From Candidatus Thorarchaeota archaeon (lineage in GTDB: Archaea > Asgardarchaeota > Thorarchaeia > Thorarchaeales > Thorarchaeaceae), in NCBI GenBank assembly GCA_029858305.1, contig JAOUFI010000019.1, positions 1 through 36,057 of the forward strand: 36,057 bases of DNA. The letters run 5' to 3'. Positions 9,834 through 21,850 of this stretch are shown piece by piece. The notes beneath the pieces are model-generated. The model made no database searches. It was not told the DNA's origin and worked only from the letters and a program-made list of their open reading frames with translations. Numbering within the stretch: position 1 is the first letter of the stretch; each line of letters starts with the position of its first letter. A program made the translations under genes and the position numbers.

Positions 9834-12644
9834 TTATCGCCTACGACGCATAAGAATATACACTATCAACAATAGTACGATGACAGATCCAATTACAATG
9901 GGTAAATTGTCGATTAGAAACGCGATGATGTCAGTTGCTTCAGATGCTGGAGCTTGTACTGTATAAGAGCCTTCAGCTGATACGGCAATATTTCCTGCAA
10001 AATCAGTTGCTTTGACACGGTATTTGACTGTCATGTCAACAGGTGCAGGAGGTATAAAGCCCGTGTGCACTCCACTGAGGTAAGTCGTGAACATCGTATT
10101 GACAGAAGCCCAGTTATCAAGAGAGAACTCAATAATCACTGATGCCAATCCAGAGGCGTTTGGTGGCTCTGAAGCAGTAGCTGTGACTATGACATAGCTT
10201 CCTTCATAGACAGCTGCAGTTGCATTGTGCTCTACTAAAGATATAATTGGACTGATTCTATCATCGACAAGATACGAGAATCCTAGGTTTAGGCTGGCAA
10301 TAGCGCTGTTATTCGTAGAAATAATTACGTAGTCAATCTGAGTGCCATAACTATGGGCAGCAACTGTTGTTGAATAGATACCTCCTGAAAGAGTCATATT
10401 AACTAGTGTCAAACTTTGCCAATCATCATCGGTCCATTGGAACGAGATGTAGTCTGCATTTGATATATTTGCAGTCACAGTGACTGCGTCAATGTATTGA
10501 GGTGAAACTGGATTCTGATTTATTTCATGAATGATTGGTATCTTTTTAGTTTCTAATATCGCACGACTCACATTGAGTTTGCCATATCCCCATGCATTAT
10601 TGCCTATTGCGGGAAACGGAGAAATAGCTCCTGTATAAGCATCAGTATAAGCTGAAGCTTCGATGATGTACTTCGCAAGAGAACCACAGTCTTTGTTTAG
10701 CTGCAACATTAAGGCTACTGCGCCAGCAACATGAGGACCGGCAGCACTTGTTCCACTGAAGAGCTGATATCCTCCAAACATTGGATTCAACGGTAATCCA
10801 CCAACCCCCGTCATCCAACTAGCCCAAGCAGAATCACTTGACCAGGAAGATACAACATCCCACCCACCGGGAGCGGAAACCGACATCTTTGGAATGTTAT
10901 CAATTCGAGGCCCACATGAAGAATAAGGAGCTATAAAACCATAGCCTGGTGACCAGAGATTTCGAGACATATAAGATGCTACAGATATTGCTGTATCAGC
11001 GGTAGAAGGCCAGGTGATGGTGAATTGGTTATTCCACCAACCATCACTTATAGTCCAGATAGCACCTCCACTCCATGATGTTGCGTCATCTGCAATATAG
11101 AAGTGATAACCTGCGGAGTTGGGATTTATTATATCGACATGCCAAGGAGTTGTGTCTTTGATAGTACCTTTGATATTAATGGCGATCATTGAGGTACCTC
11201 TCATCGATTTCGCCGTAAATGACTGAACAGTAACATTCAAGGTAGCTGGACTGCTTACCCAATTGTTATACCCAGTGCCAGGATTCAAAATATGCGAAAT
11301 AAAGCCAGTTGGAACAGGCTCTTGAATGATTATCTGTGCTTGGTTAACTGGTTGATTGCAGAGGATTGTTATATACAATTCAGAAATTCCAAGCCCGGAG
11401 GGAACTTCAAAGCGCGTTGTGAATATGATATTTGACAATCCAGTTCTCTGGGCATGACGGTATCCACCAAACAGATTTCCAGCAGGAACAATTACTGGAA
11501 TTCCGCTTCTTGTTAAGGAGTCAATCATGAGCTCGACATTACTTGACCCGTCGAGATATTCATAGGTCCAAGAACCTACCTCGATAATAATGACATCTGC
11601 GCCATGATCCCGCGCCCAGATTAAACCTTCTTCTACAGTTAAGCCGTCAGAGTCAAAGATGTCAATCATCATTAATTCAGCATCTGGTGCAATACCTACG
11701 AATTGGCGATAGCCTAGCTGTCCACCATTGAGAATTCCAGCTACTCCCGTGCCATGTCCATGGGTGTCGTAGTGAGTACTTGAGGTGAGATTCACTCCTC
11801 GCTCCCAGACCTCTATATTCAGACCATTCTTCTCGACAATATACTTTGTTTTTGGTGTTTTGAGAGCAATAAGATTCTCTCCAATGTTCAGAACATTATT
11901 AGAGTTTGTATCAGCCACAACGAAAAAGGTATCACCATCATCAATAGCTCCCAGAATTGTCCCATTGTCCAGCCAGATCCAATCAATATCAGTCTCATAG
12001 ACAGAGTTTCTGTTGGTATCGGTGACATAGAGAATCTCATTGCTCGAAATAGCAAAGTCATTATTGAGGTCGATGCCATCAGTTCCATTGTCAAACTGCA
12101 AGTTCCCAGGACTATACCAATTATACGATTCACCGTCTGCGTAGAAGAAGTCTGGGTGACGCCACTGAATTCCTGTGTCAAGGTCGGCAATTAAAATGTC
12201 TTTTCCTGTAAGATTCTGTAATTCATAATCCTTCATAGACCAAGCTAAATTTGTGTATGTTTCAGCAATTGAAACATCCCGAGGTGAGTGGTAATTCTGA
12301 TTCTTCAAGGGTTCAGCGTTCCGATACAACGGATGCAAAGCAAGTGTGTTAAGTGCACTCTCTGAAACCTCAACGATATAGACTGAACCAATATGCTGTG
12401 GATTCAATCCAAAAGATATCCCCATATTCTCAAATTCTAGAATCTCACTATTTGTCAATTCACGTTCAAAAGAAATTGAAACACGACTGACCGGTTCATC
12501 AAGATTAAGGATTGAGAGTTCAGGCTCAACAACAGATTCTGGAAATTCCATCTGATTTGAAGTATTCATGTTGGAACTTGGAACAGGTCCAACACTCAAC
12601 ATCAAAAAGACAAGTATGATAGACAAAATTGCTTTTGAAGGCAT
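9834..12644 (-). CDS. Secreted, membrane-anchored subtilisin-like serine protease (S8)
   Basis: A 936-residue protein from the ATG at 12644, which has GAGGGAG just upstream (an in-frame GTG at 12683 is less likely). A signal peptide covers about residues 1-22, followed by a propeptide-like region. The catalytic triad is D156 (A-D-L-D-T-G), H297 (G-H-G-T-G-V-A-G) and S633 (F-S-G-T-S-A-A-G-P); N390 in V-P-A-G-N is the oxyanion residue. Between Asp and His is an insert of about 140 residues with Asp/Asn-rich calcium-loop-like segments. The C-terminal part has beta-sandwich-like segments, then a membrane helix (IVIGSVIVLLLIVYIL) and a final MRRRR anchor. It should act outside the cell, held to the membrane. 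Confidence 0.93.
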   Translation of the reverse strand: MPSKAILSIILVFLMLSVGPVPSSNMNTSNQMEFPESVVEPELSILNLDEPVSRVSISFERELTNSEILEFENMGISFGLNPQHIGSVYIVEVSESALNTLALHPLYRNAEPLKNQNYHSPRDVSIAETYTNLAWSMKDYELQNLTGKDILIADLDTGIQWRHPDFFYADGESYNWYSPGNLQFDNGTDGIDLNNDFAISSNEILYVTDTNRNSVYETDIDWIWLDNGTILGAIDDGDTFFVVADTNSNNVLNIGENLIALKTPKTKYIVEKNGLNIEVWERGVNLTSSTHYDTHGHGTGVAGILNGGQLGYRQFVGIAPDAELMMIDIFDSDGLTVEEGLIWARDHGADVIIIEVGSWTYEYLDGSSNVELMIDSLTRSGIPVIVPAGNLFGGYRHAQRTGLSNIIFTTRFEVPSGLGISELYITILCNQPVNQAQIIIQEPVPTGFISHILNPGTGYNNWVSSPATLNVTVQSFTAKSMRGTSMIAINIKGTIKDTTPWHVDIINPNSAGYHFYIADDATSWSGGAIWTISDGWWNNQFTITWPSTADTAISVASYMSRNLWSPGYGFIAPYSSCGPRIDNIPKMSVSAPGGWDVVSSWSSDSAWASWMTGVGGLPLNPMFGGYQLFSGTSAAGPHVAGAVALMLQLNKDCGSLAKYIIEASAYTDAYTGAISPFPAIGNNAWGYGKLNVSRAILETKKIPIIHEINQNPVSPQYIDAVTVTANISNADYISFQWTDDDWQSLTLVNMTLSGGIYSTTVAAHSYGTQIDYVIISTNNSAIASLNLGFSYLVDDRISPIISLVEHNATAAVYEGSYVIVTATASEPPNASGLASVIIEFSLDNWASVNTMFTTYLSGVHTGFIPPAPVDMTVKYRVKATDFAGNIAVSAEGSYTVQAPASEATDIIAFLIDNLPIVIGSVIVLLLIVYILMRRRR

Positions 12645-17219: not shown

Positions 17220-17297
17220 TTACGATTGGAGTCATGCCCTGTCTAAGAACTCCTGCTTTTAGGCAGGATTGAATGACGAAAAGCTTTGTAAGTAACC
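17220..17297 (-). repeat. Displaced, decayed copy A of the nrdD 3' end (26 codons)
   Basis: Read on the minus strand this translates as GYLQSFSSFNPA, stop, KQEFLDRA, stop, then LQS and a final TAA. The end of nrdD is GYLQALSSYNPAKKQEFLDR followed by HRYSL. The match starts at the glycyl-radical glycine codon, and both stretches are exactly 26 codons including the stop. The internal AAG has become TAA, so it cannot encode the tail. It lies between the C11 peptidase and the luciferase-like gene. Confidence 0.85.
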
Positions 17298-17321
17298 TCA
17301 GAAAAAACACTCAGAAAAAAC
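17297..17321 (+). repeat. Tandem 12-base repeat at the edge of nrdD-tail copy A
   Basis: CTCAGAAAAAAC occurs at 17297-17308 and again at 17310-17321, a period of 13. It begins on the exact base where the match to nrdD ends. It could be a scar of insertion or simple slippage. Confidence 0.6.
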
Positions 17322-17372
17322 GAGTGAACATGATATTACAAAGTTTCTCAACTCGTTCGCTTGTGTACTGCG

Positions 17373-18185
17373 ATGAAATATGGAGTCTATATCTCTAACT
17401 ACGCACTTCAAGGAGATCCCAATAAATTCCTTGAATTGGCAGTTGCTGCTGAAGATGCAAAGTGGGATGGGTTCTTTATGTGGGACCACAATTATGCAGG
17501 AAAGGATGAATTGATTGCAGACCCATGGATCACACTTGCAGGCATAGCAGCACGCACTGAAAAGATTAGAATCGGCACAACAGTGACACCTCTACCAAGA
17601 CGACGCCCACAGGATGTAGCAAGGGAGGTCGCTACACTAGATATTCTTTCTAAGGGTAGGTTCATTCTAGGAGTTGGATTAGGGGGTTCTTCTGACAATG
17701 ATTATGGAAGTTTCGGAGAAGATACTGACCTCAAAGTAAGGGCTGAGAAACTAGACGAGTCATTAGCTATTCTTGAGGGTCTTTGGTCTGGTAAACCATT
17801 TTCATTCTCTGGAAAGCACTACAATATTCATGAGGTCACATTCAATCCTCGCCCGATTCAGCGACCACGCGTGCCAATATGGTGTGCAGGTACTTGGCCA
17901 ATAAAAGCTCCATTCAGAAGAGCGGCAAGATACGATGGTGTGTTTCCATTATCGATGAGCGAAGACATGTCTCTGGAGGAATATTCCGAGGTAGTAAACT
18001 ATGTCAAAAAGCATCGAGGATCCATGAAGGATTTTGATGTGGTAATTATGGGGACAACTACTGGGGATGAAAAGGTCTCGTGGATTGGTGAATCCGAGGC
18101 TCTTGGTATGACTTGGTATGTTGAAGTCATGATGGGAGATGATTTTAACAAGTTCTATGAAAGAGTTGTAAAAGGGCCTCCTTGA
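17373..18185 (+). CDS. Luciferase-like (LLM class, probably F420-dependent) oxidoreductase
   Basis: A 270-residue TIM-barrel protein of the bacterial-luciferase superfamily. It opens with M-K-Y-G-V-Y-I-S-N-Y and has the family landmarks W-D-G-F-F-M-W-D-H-N, T-E-K-I-R-I-G-T-T-V-T-P-L-P-R-R-R-P, and L-S-K-G-R-F-I-L-G-V-G-L-G near residue 95-105. Archaeal members usually use F420. The ATG at 17373 is used rather than a TTG at 17361. It is slightly short of common 290-340-residue members, with the barrel ending early. It lies between copies A and B of the nrdD tail, which points to it having arrived as cargo. The substrate is unknown. Confidence 0.88.
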   Translation: MKYGVYISNYALQGDPNKFLELAVAAEDAKWDGFFMWDHNYAGKDELIADPWITLAGIAARTEKIRIGTTVTPLPRRRPQDVAREVATLDILSKGRFILGVGLGGSSDNDYGSFGEDTDLKVRAEKLDESLAILEGLWSGKPFSFSGKHYNIHEVTFNPRPIQRPRVPIWCAGTWPIKAPFRRAARYDGVFPLSMSEDMSLEEYSEVVNYVKKHRGSMKDFDVVIMGTTTGDEKVSWIGESEALGMTWYVEVMMGDDFNKFYERVVKGPP

Positions 18186-18192
18186 AAAAATC

Positions 18193-18270
18193 CTACAGTG
18201 AATACCTGTGTCTATCTAGGAACTCCTGCTTCTTCGCAGGGTTGTTTGAAGATAGGTCTTGCAAATACAC
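18193..18270 (-). repeat. Displaced copy B of the nrdD 3' end (26 codons, peptide intact)
   Basis: On the minus strand this reads VYLQDLSSN followed by NPAKKQEFLDRHRYSL and a TAG. The last 16 residues equal the nrdD C-terminus exactly, while many codons differ at the third base (for example CTA for CTT, GAT for GAC, CTG for TTA). The glycyl-radical Gly codon is GTG (Val) here. It starts eight bases after the stop of the luciferase-like gene. There is no nrdD body attached. Confidence 0.9.
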
Positions 18271-18350
18271 AATAAACATAAATTAAAAGATGAGTTGATG
18301 AATTTAGCATTCCTCTTACGATGAGGGAGAATTGAAGGTGGCCTGGTAGG

Positions 18351-19694
18351 ATGATGTGGAGAATACGATATTGTTCTGCCATATTTGTTTGTTTCACACT
18401 CATTCTGGTTTCTACTCATTCAATCGCAACCGAGACCACGAATGCAGAGCCAAGTTTCGGACCCAATTCAATACCAAACATCTACACCCAAAGTAGTGTA
18501 AATGAAACAGCAGCATATGGACCGCCCTTTGTAGTATTCGTTAATTGGGGTTGGACAGGCAATCTCACATACACATATTGGGATCTAAACGGGGATAAGG
18601 GCATTCCTAATGCTAATGTCACATGTCTATCCTTCGTATGTGATGGGATTTATGACCTAGGAAACGGTTCTTATTTGGTCAAAGTAAACACTACCTATTC
18701 CTGGGCTCCGGAGTATCTGTATCTAATTGTTGCCTTCGATAAAACAGGATTTGAGAATCAAGTTGTTGTGACTGAAATGCATTTGTATCCCGCACCCACA
18801 AATCTTGTTGTTGTTATACCAGAAGAGAACCAGATTGATAACTACCCTCTTTGGCTTATGATCCCCCTCGGTGATGCAATAGACATTCAATTTTTCTATA
18901 ACGACACAGATGACTCTGATGGTCATGTGGGAGGACTAGCTGGCGCATCCGCTAGTGCAACCATCGTTGGTCCCACGCTTACTGAGCAATATGTACAACT
19001 CACAGACCAAGAGAATGGGTATTATAATCTGACATTTGATACAACATCTGAATGGCTGTATGAATCTGTAGGATGTACGCCTAGGTCAAATTGGTTGCCT
19101 TATTATATTCACATTCAGCTCGCTCTTGAGAACAGAGTTCCATGGGATCGTACAATCGAAATCACCATCATAGATATACCAACAGAAATCCAAATAACTC
19201 CTCATTATGAACCATTATATCCATTACATCTTATCCCGAGTGGCAACTTCATATTCGTCTCTTTGGTGGATATCTGGCCTTCTCATGAAGAGGCGCTCGT
19301 TCGGGATGTAAGCATTTCAGTAGAAACTTATAACTCATCATTCATAGAGGTTCGTTCAATCACCGAAGATCCTGAAAATCCAGGAGTCTATGAAATCGTA
19401 TTGTTCAATAATGTTCCAGCTTCAGTACAAGCGACCATTCCCAATGGTGGATGTATACCAAACGAAATCACGTATGCATCAATAGTATTCTCAATCTTTG
19501 TCGAGAAAGAAGGGTATGCAAGTCAGGAAATCACAATTGCGGCAGATCTTATAGCGGTCGGTGGGGGGGGCTGGGGACCTCAGCCACTGGCGGGTGTTCC
19601 AATATTAATTGTAATTGCAGTTATAGTTGGAGCTCACTATTTCCGGAAACAACGACAGCTGCATTCTACAGTAGCATCAACTGAAATTGATTAA
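18351..19694 (+). CDS. Secreted membrane-anchored beta-sandwich protein, unknown function
   Basis: A 447-residue surface protein. A signal peptide spans about residues 7-27 (YCSAIFVCFTLILVSTHSIA). The long middle is beta-rich with many N-x-S/T sites, and contains at least two segments of Ig/transthyretin style (D-L-N-G-D-K-G-I-P-N-A-N-V followed by G-N-G-S-Y-L-V-K-V; and G-Y-Y-N-L-T-F-D-T). A Gly/Pro hinge (GGGGWGPQPLAG) leads to a C-terminal membrane helix (VPILIVIAVIVGAHYF) and a basic tail. ATG at 18351 has AAGGTGG nine bases before it. It lies between nrdD-tail copies B and C and points toward nrdD. Possible receptor or adhesin; no enzyme motif seen. Confidence 0.8.
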   Translation: MMWRIRYCSAIFVCFTLILVSTHSIATETTNAEPSFGPNSIPNIYTQSSVNETAAYGPPFVVFVNWGWTGNLTYTYWDLNGDKGIPNANVTCLSFVCDGIYDLGNGSYLVKVNTTYSWAPEYLYLIVAFDKTGFENQVVVTEMHLYPAPTNLVVVIPEENQIDNYPLWLMIPLGDAIDIQFFYNDTDDSDGHVGGLAGASASATIVGPTLTEQYVQLTDQENGYYNLTFDTTSEWLYESVGCTPRSNWLPYYIHIQLALENRVPWDRTIEITIIDIPTEIQITPHYEPLYPLHLIPSGNFIFVSLVDIWPSHEEALVRDVSISVETYNSSFIEVRSITEDPENPGVYEIVLFNNVPASVQATIPNGGCIPNEITYASIVFSIFVEKEGYASQEITIAADLIAVGGGGWGPQPLAGVPILIVIAVIVGAHYFRKQRQLHSTVASTEID

Positions 19695-19708
19695 GGGGTA
19701 CTTCTCAG

Positions 19709-19786
19709 TCATAACGAATATCGGTGCCTGTCAAGGAACTCCTGCTTCTTTGCAGGATTATATGACGAGAGCGCTTGCAAATAGCC
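19709..19786 (-). repeat. Copy C: live nrdD 3' end, source member of the three-copy tail repeat
   Basis: These last 26 codons of nrdD, from the glycyl-radical Gly to the stop, match copies A and B. All three contain a short inverted repeat, TCCTGC-N6-GCAGGA in A and C and with one mismatched outer base in B, around codons 10-16. The arms are kept while the six-base centre varies. Confidence 0.88.
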
Positions 19787-21850
19787 TGTTATTCTGCTGA
19801 ACACCTCGACTCCCACAAATCCGCACTTCGGACAGGGGATTTTTGAGAGGTCATCAATAGACGCAAACCTTGCACTCCGCCAATCAATACCACTCTGATA
19901 GTTGCAGTTCGGGCACTGTAAAACATCCTTTGTGAAGCTCCAATATGAGTTCAGAGTCTCTGTAGCAATCTTCTTTGTCAGCTCCCAAAGCGCATCAGGA
20001 TCTGGATTTGATTCACCAAGGTAGACATGAGTGAGAGCACCTCCATCCATGTACGGATGGAACATCCCTTCCTTCTTGATCCGTTGTGTCAGAGGAAGTT
20101 TCGCACCTACGTAGAGGGTCGTGCTGTTGGTATAGTAGACATTGGAACCATCACCCTTGAGATATTTCCTGATTCCAGGATACGCCTTGTAGTCCTTCAC
20201 CGCAAGACGACCTGCTGCGCTCTCAGCTGGAGTACGAGTGACACCAAAGTGGAGACCGGTCTCTTTCTGGAACTCTGCGGCTTTCGCTTTCAGGTGCTTG
20301 AGGACTTTGATTCCGAAACGTGTTCCCTCTGGTTCATGTAGATGGTGGCCAGTTATAACTTCAGCCATCTCGTCAAAACCAACCGTGCCCAACAGGAACT
20401 CACGTCGATTCATATCGATGAGAGGCTCACCATTTGGCTTGGGCTGTGTATAGAAAGGAACACTCCCGCTAGCAATCAGCTTGTCCATCAGCCGCTTCTT
20501 CTCAAGGATGACTTGTTTTGATAGTTCGACGTACTCGTCTATCTTCTCAAAGAAATGTTCCTCATCAGCTCTGCCTAGCCACGCGGCACGACCGAAGTTT
20601 GGTGTGACCATCTGCGAGGCTCCAAAGACCATATTTCCACTCAGGAACTCATCAAGTTCCTCATCACTACTCGCAGTCCAGAGATGTGAACAACAACTAC
20701 TGCAACCAGCCTCTATCTTTGATCGCCAGTTCAAGTAGTTCTCGAAATAGGGAGAACCATGTTTTACAGTGAGCTCAGCGACAAGCCGCCATGACTCATC
20801 ATACTCAGGTCCCATGAACTCTTTCCGAAGCACGATGTTGGGCTTTGGAAAACCGAAGCCCTTGCCCTTCGCATCACCCTTAATCATGACTTCCATGAAG
20901 GCATTGAAGAACAACCGCGCTTCTTCCTCATAGTCGCCATATGTGACCTCGGAAACCTTACCGCCAGGAAGTATTGCTGGAATATTACGCATAATCTTAG
21001 GAATACCGGGAGTAAGGTCAACACTACTGAATATCACCTGACCACCGCGCGCTACATACTGTTGGGTCAAAGTGAAGATCAACTGCTGCGCAGCTTGTTT
21101 GATCTTATTGTATGGCAGCCCTTTCATGAAGGGAGCTAAGAATGTATTGAAGTAGAAATATCCCTGACCGCCTGCAAAGGAGCTCTGAGCAGCAGCCAGC
21201 CAGATAGCGGCATGGTTTACTGCAACAGAGAGGTGTTGTGCAGGACCTGCGGCACTTGAGTGCATGCCACCAAGCCCATCAGGTGCAATACCTAGCGTAA
21301 GGACCTGTCGCATATCCCATGTGGCACAATAATCACGCGTTGAAAAATACTCTCTATCTTTGATGTAGATATCGCCTTTCAAATGAGCATCTGCTAGATG
21401 AGATGGTATTGAGAGGTAGGTATGTTGTTCCATCACCTGGTCGTGAACAAGTTTTGCAATCGTCTCAGGATTTCGCATGAGATTCGCATTGGATGTATGA
21501 GCACCGGGGTTATTAATGAGCAGACCGAGGTCGTACATAGGAATTCCAACACGAGTATAGAGGATACGTTCTTTCTCAAATCCCAGCTCAGCAAGGACAC
21601 TGTTGCACATCTCTCGAATTAGAGGACCGGATAGGAATTTGATACCAGAGGCAACAAGTCTATCCATGACCTTGACTGCCACAAGATGAGCATCAGCATG
21701 CGCGAGGTTAGCTTCCAATACAAGACTTTCAATGATTTTACTAGCATCGAAGGTCTCCATAGTACTGCTGGTGGTTCTGACCTTTGGCATCTTTTTCTCT
21801 CTGATGCGAAGGTCATCTGCATCTGAAATAGTGCTTCGAATGTCAGTCAC
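19709..21850 (-). CDS. nrdD: Anaerobic (class III) ribonucleoside-triphosphate reductase
   Basis: A 713-residue glycyl-radical enzyme that makes deoxyribonucleotides without oxygen. Residues about 20-105 form an ATP-cone regulatory domain (V-R-T-T-S-S-T-M-E-T-F-D-A-S-K-I). The catalytic barrel follows, with R-D-Y-C near 172 and the E-A-G-C-S-S-C-C region. A zinc site uses C646, C649, C673 and C676 (two CPxC pairs). The glycyl-radical residue is G689 in R-I-T-G-Y-L, 25 residues from the end. GTG at 21850 is used as start because it overlaps the stop of the upstream redoxin gene (GTGA). The activase NrdG is not in the window. The last 26 codons are duplicated twice downstream. Confidence 0.95.
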   Translation of the reverse strand: MTDIRSTISDADDLRIREKKMPKVRTTSSTMETFDASKIIESLVLEANLAHADAHLVAVKVMDRLVASGIKFLSGPLIREMCNSVLAELGFEKERILYTRVGIPMYDLGLLINNPGAHTSNANLMRNPETIAKLVHDQVMEQHTYLSIPSHLADAHLKGDIYIKDREYFSTRDYCATWDMRQVLTLGIAPDGLGGMHSSAAGPAQHLSVAVNHAAIWLAAAQSSFAGGQGYFYFNTFLAPFMKGLPYNKIKQAAQQLIFTLTQQYVARGGQVIFSSVDLTPGIPKIMRNIPAILPGGKVSEVTYGDYEEEARLFFNAFMEVMIKGDAKGKGFGFPKPNIVLRKEFMGPEYDESWRLVAELTVKHGSPYFENYLNWRSKIEAGCSSCCSHLWTASSDEELDEFLSGNMVFGASQMVTPNFGRAAWLGRADEEHFFEKIDEYVELSKQVILEKKRLMDKLIASGSVPFYTQPKPNGEPLIDMNRREFLLGTVGFDEMAEVITGHHLHEPEGTRFGIKVLKHLKAKAAEFQKETGLHFGVTRTPAESAAGRLAVKDYKAYPGIRKYLKGDGSNVYYTNSTTLYVGAKLPLTQRIKKEGMFHPYMDGGALTHVYLGESNPDPDALWELTKKIATETLNSYWSFTKDVLQCPNCNYQSGIDWRSARFASIDDLSKIPCPKCGFVGVEVFSRITGYLQALSSYNPAKKQEFLDRHRYSL

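Follow-up and report, generated by a model that had tools for sequence, protein, structure and literature searches.

Displaced nrdD 3' Ends in Thorarchaeota and Their Possible Origin in Repeated C-Terminus-Replacing Homing

Introduction

Some mobile elements, including integrase elements and SCC-type islands, insert at the 3' ends of protein genes such as icd, guaA, and rlmH and restore those ends. In fungal mitochondria, mobile endonuclease open reading frames (mORFs) replace the C-termini of genes (atp6 of Allomyces and atp6, atp9, cox2, and nad3 of Glomus). The gene then carries an inserted foreign C-terminus accompanied by an endonuclease open reading frame (ORF), and the native C-terminus, which resembles those of relatives more closely, is displaced (PMC3630166). 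T-even phages carry free-standing HNH homing endonucleases at ribonucleotide reductase genes, mobC at nrdG/nrdD and mobE at nrdA/nrdB, and flanking sequence is co-converted in T4 homing, for which nrdD and its neighbors are targets (PMC2988022). Going by the title of a reference in the same review, homing of a defunct element in trans is on record for mobE. Integrons have been reported in Asgard archaea (PMC9668308). The present study concerns a 36,057-nucleotide (nt) stretch of DNA from Candidatus Thorarchaeota archaeon (assembly GCA_029858305.1, contig JAOUFI010000019.1, positions 1 to 36,057; hereafter the window), in which the 3' end of nrdD, the gene for an anaerobic ribonucleoside-triphosphate reductase, is present in three copies with other genes between them. 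As judged from related genomes, segments of one or a few genes have evidently entered the nrdD tail in succession, and the tails are regarded here, with modest confidence, as probable scars of repeated C-terminus-replacing homing at this gene end.

Three Copies of the nrdD Tail in the Window

The nrdD gene is located on the minus strand (positions 19709 to 21850) and was identified by TIGR02487 (E = 4e-130) and by its translation. Its protein ends in RITGYLQALSSYNPAKKQEFLDRHRYSL before the stop codon, and its 3' end is the insertion target. The live tail (19709 to 19786, minus strand) comprises the last 25 codons and the stop, starting at the glycyl-radical Gly codon, and its right arm (19709 to 19759, minus strand; NPAKKQEFLDRHRYSL and the stop) is conserved genus-wide in detached copies. 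Two displaced tails share the strand and the register of this nrdD end. Tail B (18193 to 18270, minus strand) encodes the intact peptide VYLQDLSSNNPAKKQEFLDRHRYSL up to the stop and is a two-source mosaic. Tail A (17220 to 17297, minus strand), the oldest, contains internal stops and reads GYLQSFSSFNPA, stop, KQEFLDRA, stop, LQS, stop. The first-pass annotation, made from the sequence of the window, had placed the three tails at these positions, and every coordinate proved correct; the translations bear out the decay gradient that it described, with A decayed worst, B intact as a peptide, and the nrdD end live. The three-tail observation is thus confirmed. A tail profile matches B and A with E values of 5e-19 and 2e-13, respectively, which are not independent values since the profile was built from sequences including A and B.

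Each interval contains one gene on the strand opposite to nrdD, also as first annotated. The interval between A and B contains a gene encoding a luciferase-like (LLM class) monooxygenase/oxidoreductase (17361 to 18185, plus strand; PF00296, E = 3e-45). The interval between B and nrdD contains a gene encoding a surface-type protein (18351 to 19694, plus strand) with an N-terminal signal and a C-terminal transmembrane stretch, for which no Pfam family was matched and whose stop codon lies 14 nt from that of nrdD. A homologue with 48% identity adjoins a tail in a relative (genome G011, locus L050:1-510; G, C, and L numbers denote the genomes, contigs, and loci of this analysis, G000 being the genome of the window). 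The surface-protein cassette is proposed as the source of the live tail, either wholly or in its 3' part.

Detached Tails in Related Genomes

The G000 genome is 3.04 Mb in 205 contigs and 88.9% complete, and the comparison sets consisted of 15 other species of the genus, 47 genomes of the family, and 228 genomes of the phylum. Tails were found by an nrdD protein search, a degenerate tail pattern, and the tail profile, and their total was counted by hand. Besides full genes, the protein search returned many matches to residues of about 688 to 713 alone. Detached nrdD tails, the search for which had been suggested by the first-pass annotation, number about 44 in 18 Thorarchaeota family genomes, and a reversed control pattern had no match in the 47 family genomes. 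Arrays contain seven consecutive tails in G009 (L043), four in G011 (L050), and three each in G006, G013, and one G010 contig. The tails of one array are all oriented like nrdD, and decay in the G009 array increases with distance from the nrdD side. G000 itself has a fourth tail, which is decayed, on contig C2 (L061).

Empty Sites, Hybrid Tails, and Junctions

The sequences downstream of nrdD in close relatives include empty and occupied variants of the same site, as seen when G001 is compared with the window and G005 with G009. In the empty-site relative G001, the luciferase gene directly follows the live nrdD tail. In the window, G012, and G015, the luciferase-adjacent tail is detached and another gene lies upstream, and in G006 the contig starts in that tail. 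The luciferase cassette, whose proteins are 82 to 88% identical, has tails on both sides in G006, G012, and G015, decayed tails orthologous to A come after it in these three genomes and in G001, and the ending TATTCACTGTAG is common to four of the five luciferase-adjoining tails. Because nrdD of G001 runs straight into the luciferase gene, the luciferase proteins are this similar, and the adjoining tails share an ending, the luciferase segment is the older one and entered the window first, with the surface-protein segment added second, in front of it.

The G005 and G009 arrays differ by exchanges between tails. Detached tail d1 of G005 combines the left arm of G009 d5 with the right arm of G009 d4; the cassette that separates d5 from d4 in G009, TPR-EVE, is missing in G005. 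Similarly, d2 of G005 consists of the left arm of G009 d3 and the right arm of G009 d1. These pairs clearly indicate that tails recombine with tails, with both gain and loss possible as the direction.

Tail B combines two sources. At positions that distinguish the G000 live tail from that of G001, the left 27 nt of tail B match the G000 live tail 10:1, and the right 51 nt match the G001 live tail 9:1 (Fisher P = 3.5e-4). The right arm is identical to the G001 live tail at 47 of 51 positions versus 39 of 51 for the live tail of its own genome, and this strict test of whether a displaced copy is closer to relatives covers one case and a short sequence. This is the pattern expected of a native tail that an incoming foreign one has displaced, and it is unlike the outcome of target-site duplication. 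Duplication of the tail by a transposase- or casposase-like insertion would explain why every insert is flanked by direct repeats, but it predicts that B should be closest to its own live tail; moreover, the left arms of live and detached tails differ even in serine codon families, and repeats of about 50 to 290 bp are far longer than the known target duplications of such enzymes. Such an origin is very improbable. The arrangement, in which nrdD appears to end in an inserted C-terminus with native ones downstream (A and B, judged against the G001 empty site), is a feature of C-terminus-replacing homing.

The repeat unit was initially described as 26 codons starting at the glycyl-radical codon. 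The whole length does recur, but only the last 16 codons (NPAKKQEFLDRHRYxL, followed by the stop) are well kept in the 21 detached tails of the genus, and the preceding nine are degenerate, which places the usual junction near codon 697/698. The junction is variable, with longer displaced pieces starting near codon 616 (G026), about 646 (G009), and about 672 (G010). Long decayed 3' pieces like those of G026 (codons 616 to 711) and G009 (about 646 to 713) would also be expected from an ancient tandem duplication of nrdD in which all but the 3' ends were deleted. However, none of the tails is accompanied by remnants of the 5' or central part of nrdD, most ends are sharp near codons 689 to 698, the cassette genes are mutually unrelated, and empty-site relatives exist, and tandem duplication is barely credible as the explanation. 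Sliding identity along nrdD was also tried as a measure of the conversion tract; the 3'-terminal 70 or so codons in the window are somewhat more divergent than the body of the gene, but other pairs drop too, and the measure was not used.

Sequential insertion at the nrdD tail, with a fresh 3' end restored and the old one pushed outward each time as the first-pass annotation had envisaged, is strongly supported by these comparisons, namely, the detached tails across the family, the G001 empty site, the G005/G009 pairs, and the mosaic structure of tail B. It had named as contrary outcomes a set of relatives all sharing the same tails and tails being conserved regulatory elements; instead, an empty-site variant exists, and the tails are degenerating coding remnants, though a pair in G034 does lie far from nrdD.

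Detached tails and nrdD ends were also observed in other settings. In the one-contig genome G034, two tails located 2.1 Mb from nrdD flank a 1.6-kb segment (L092:9189-9240 and 10856-10898; C1, at about 400 kb), and one of them overlaps the 3' end of a sulfatase gene. On contig C101 of G009 (L051:1-5197), nrdD codons of about 646 to 713 are joined to a gene for a 661-amino-acid (aa) ATPase-like protein, a gene for a 218-aa protein, and a primase-like gene; this nrdD end is unusually long and is displaced or chimeric. In G018, type I restriction-like genes (L059:12088-17696) lie between nrdD and a tail detached 16 kb downstream. The contigs carrying nrdD stop at codons 610 to 653 in G008, G015, and G011 (L055, L056, and L057), and contig C110 of G006 begins inside a tail. 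Assemblies thus fork repeatedly at the end of nrdD, which suggests strain variation there.

HNH-NUMOD3 Remnants beside the Tails

The 3' end of an HNH endonuclease gene, in convergent orientation, is found downstream of several live and detached tails. A profile of the last 34 residues detected HNH C-terminal remnants, at a near-constant offset, at 12 of 69 tails, whereas none was detected at 223 other gene ends of the same loci, which served as controls. Seven of the 12 were in the training set, and the 5 held out scored 9.8 to 21.9 bits (best control, 4.6). The positive tails are live in G010, G017, G022, G032, G034, and G061 and detached in G002, G010, G061, and G063. Further candidates beside the tail on C2 of G000, d2 of G006, d2 of G009, and d1 of G018 were recognized by eye only, two of them scoring 3.8 to 4.1 bits versus a control best of 2.6, and were not counted. 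A nuclease domain and a homing-type DNA-binding module, HNH and NUMOD3, are recognizable in the G017 and G032 remnants (PF01844, E = 2e-7, in G017; PF07460 NUMOD3, E = 1e-6, in G032), and no intact gene was found at the target; intact HNH homologues unlinked to nrdD match PF01844 with an E value of 1.5e-12.

An endonuclease gene adjoining a duplicated gene end is thus present in relatives, and it is absent from the cassettes of the window. In G061 (L094), three successive units each consist of a tail, an HNH remnant, and cargo, the cargo being a NERD nuclease gene, then MoxR and vWA genes, and then a further gene. In G032, the live tail is separated from a displaced, decayed one by most of an element (L062:5744-9127). 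Ordinary homologous recombination or gene conversion between related Thorarchaeota nrdD loci, with no dedicated nuclease, with the repeated tails serving as short homologies, and with HNH as an independent visitor, would suffice for the tail-by-tail hybrids, and the cargo does resemble genes common in the neighborhood. However, unaided recombination works poorly on homologies of about 50 to 78 bp with 70 to 90% identity, and such exchange leaves the first nonhomologous insertion, the restriction to one gene end, and the HNH enrichment unexplained, making it improbable as the sole process.

At other sites in the family, a four-gene operon ends with the HNH gene, which is preceded by genes encoding an approximately 100-aa "KTRIN-SK" protein, a PriS-like primase (match to 1zt2, E = 1.6e-5), and a 565- to 600-aa protein (L200:1376-5155, L201:6302-10098, L203:5795-9864, and L204:112-4103). 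The operon is mobile looking and limited to the family of the window among the 228 phylum genomes searched. The third gene, just upstream of HNH, encodes a CxCxxC...H motif and has no family match. It occurs seven times in the 228 genomes, and three of the seven occurrences adjoin the nrdD 3' end; by our own estimate, in which nrdD ± 5 kb represents about 0.3% of a genome, three of seven would arise by chance with a probability of about 1e-6. A TGT/DpdA-like identity considered for its product was unconfirmed, with no Pfam, NCBIfam, or PDB sequence match, a model pLDDT of 42, and generic TIM barrels as the best folds. A viral origin of the tails or the element was dropped after searches of IMG/VR, in which neither the exact tail pattern nor an alignment of the third gene gave a match. 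In G030 (L187:5546-11540), LRR protein genes paired with LAGLIDADG-like genes occur repeatedly 3' of nrdD and the third gene of the element.

Duplicated gene ends near HNH genes were also seen away from nrdD. The last 29 codons of the HNH gene of the G026 element are repeated upstream of the element (L201:5784-5870), apparently a sign of tandem insertion there too. In G029, no more than 2 nt beyond a ZIP transporter gene lies a decayed duplicate of the last 29 or so codons of that gene (L202:10978-11064; locus L202:10978-11827), near an HNH gene of the nrdD-linked family, and the orthologous locus of G018 lacks this copy. The ZIP case may be taken as a weaker hint that C-terminus duplication near HNH genes is general.

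Search for Recombinases

The first-pass annotation saw no integrase, and none is present in the window; in G000, 89% complete, neither PF00589 (tyrosine integrase) nor PF07508 (large serine recombinase) has any match. PF00589 is present in 18 of the 47 family genomes, where the only contig shared with a tail is in G018, at a distance of 11 kb, and PF07508 is present in 1 of the 47. Tyrosine and large serine recombinases are missing from most array-bearing relatives as well. The annotation had likened the locus to integrase insertion at tRNA ends, a mechanism that is not supported, no integrase being linked to the arrays, and had proposed looking for integrases with a tail nearby, of which no convincing example was found when 30 PF00589 loci from family genomes were scanned with the tail profile. 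The attC cores RYYYAAC and GTTRRRY occur together in 5 of 56 tails, with no common position.

A tyrosine or serine site-specific recombinase acting in trans could insert small circular cassettes whose attachment site derives from the tail, as in integrons or 3'-end integrase elements. Single-gene cassettes of 0.5 to 3.3 kb, array growth at one end, restoration of the gene end, and hybrid tails that switch within a narrow zone are all consistent with this model, as is a short inverted repeat, TCCTGC-NAAGAA-GCAGGA, that many tails have in the junction zone. However, the TCCTGC/GCAGGA repeat was dropped as a recombinase core, being accounted for by the codons of PAKKQE and not strictly kept (CAAGAA variants). 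The distribution of PF00589 and PF07508, the nonconserved attC-type motifs, and the much longer displaced tails of G026, G009, and G010, which are unlike the products of a fixed crossover, also argue against it. An integrase reading is thus possible, though one without an enzyme, and on balance unlikely.

Like integrons, the nrdD locus has cassettes, mostly of one gene, that are each joined to a repeated site and form arrays; these arrays grow at one fixed end and show dynamic gain and loss. Unlike integrons, it has no IntI in G000 and no conserved attC cores, what repeats is the end of the nrdD coding sequence, and its old sites decay. Integrase and SCC-type elements similarly have an element-borne copy that restores the gene end, and their tandem accretion leaves several copies of the attachment site, but the nrdD segments are 0.5 to 3 kb long, carry no recombinase, and have a variable junction length.

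Homing as the Proposed Mechanism

The tail process is real, repeated, and strongly nonrandom. Its interpretation as C-terminus-replacing homing at the nrdD 3' end is based on the tail arrays, the empty and occupied pairs, the tail B mosaic, the retention of the last 16 codons in detached tails, the HNH enrichment at tails, the G061 and G032 units, the nrdD-linked third gene, the lack of a recombinase that would account for them, and the fungal and T4 precedents. The driver would be a free-standing HNH-NUMOD3 homing endonuclease, the element of which has its 3' end convergent to nrdD, 10 to 30 nt beyond the nrdD stop. In alleles without the element, the putative HNH enzyme would cleave the tail at its conserved sequence, and repair from an element-bearing nrdD locus would copy in the tail of that locus together with the adjoining DNA. 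The incoming tail would be a functional and presumably uncut replacement. The far junction would form in the old tail of the recipient. As the sequences show, nrdD ends after each insertion in a tail carried by the new segment, and the older tail remains beyond the cargo and decays. The endonuclease gene may later decay, with some neighboring donor genes staying as cargo; cassettes without an endonuclease may be movable in trans. Recombination of tails with one another also occurs, so that cassettes inside arrays are gained or lost.

Several observations weigh against homing. The main weakness is that the two cassettes of the window have no HNH gene or clear remnant, so that decay or mobilization in trans is required. 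G000 has no HNH match to the nrdD-linked query at an E value of ≤0.01, most array intervals in the genus of the window are without HNH, and the nrdD-linked HNH copies found are all broken by truncation, stops, or frameshifts, leaving no active pair among them, with intact relatives elsewhere. HNH may be just one of the passengers at a hotspot that has another cause. In addition, nearly all of the genomes are draft metagenome-assembled genomes, and an integrase could sit on an unassembled contig.

The anatomy of the locus supports its membership in the C-terminus-replacing homing class. Like the fungal mORFs, it has, across its relatives, an endonuclease ORF at a gene end, an in-frame foreign C-terminus, and a native C-terminus displaced downstream, and the displaced end appears to resemble relatives more closely at the DNA level than the inserted end does, with mostly synonymous differences. 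Unlike them, it belongs to an archaeal chromosome, involves HNH-NUMOD3 rather than LAGLIDADG or GIY-YIG enzymes, has the HNH gene convergent with the target gene, and forms iterated arrays of up to seven tails with cargo between them, the endonuclease usually being decayed or gone. As in the T-even phages, HNH genes are situated at ribonucleotide reductase genes and conserved essential coding sequence is targeted, but the phage enzymes sit between genes, and displaced target-gene ends or cargo arrays are not reported in PMC2988022. No description of archaeal nrdD as such a homing target was found in the part of the literature that was covered.

Significance for Thorarchaeota

The nrdD 3' end may tentatively be viewed as a standing gene-capture platform, integron-like in effect, that is located on essential protein-coding sequence and powered, partly in trans, by a homing endonuclease. 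Cassettes with tails, among them those for surface proteins, EVE and restriction-type nucleases, and MoxR-vWA, would be gained, stacked, and lost by recombination between tails, with the host C-terminus replaced at each capture. Under the homing interpretation, the end of an essential gene would be seized and replaced in the same act, a selfish strategy that to our knowledge was previously known only from fungal mitochondria and that would here operate in an Asgard chromosome, many times iterated and with cargo. The origin of natural cleave-and-replace elements and the formation of integron-like arrays without an integrase would thereby become testable. For the Thorarchaeota, the locus would represent a defined hotspot of gene gain, which would account for the recurrent assembly breaks at nrdD, and the displaced tails would provide a dated record of these gains, with one insertion per tail.

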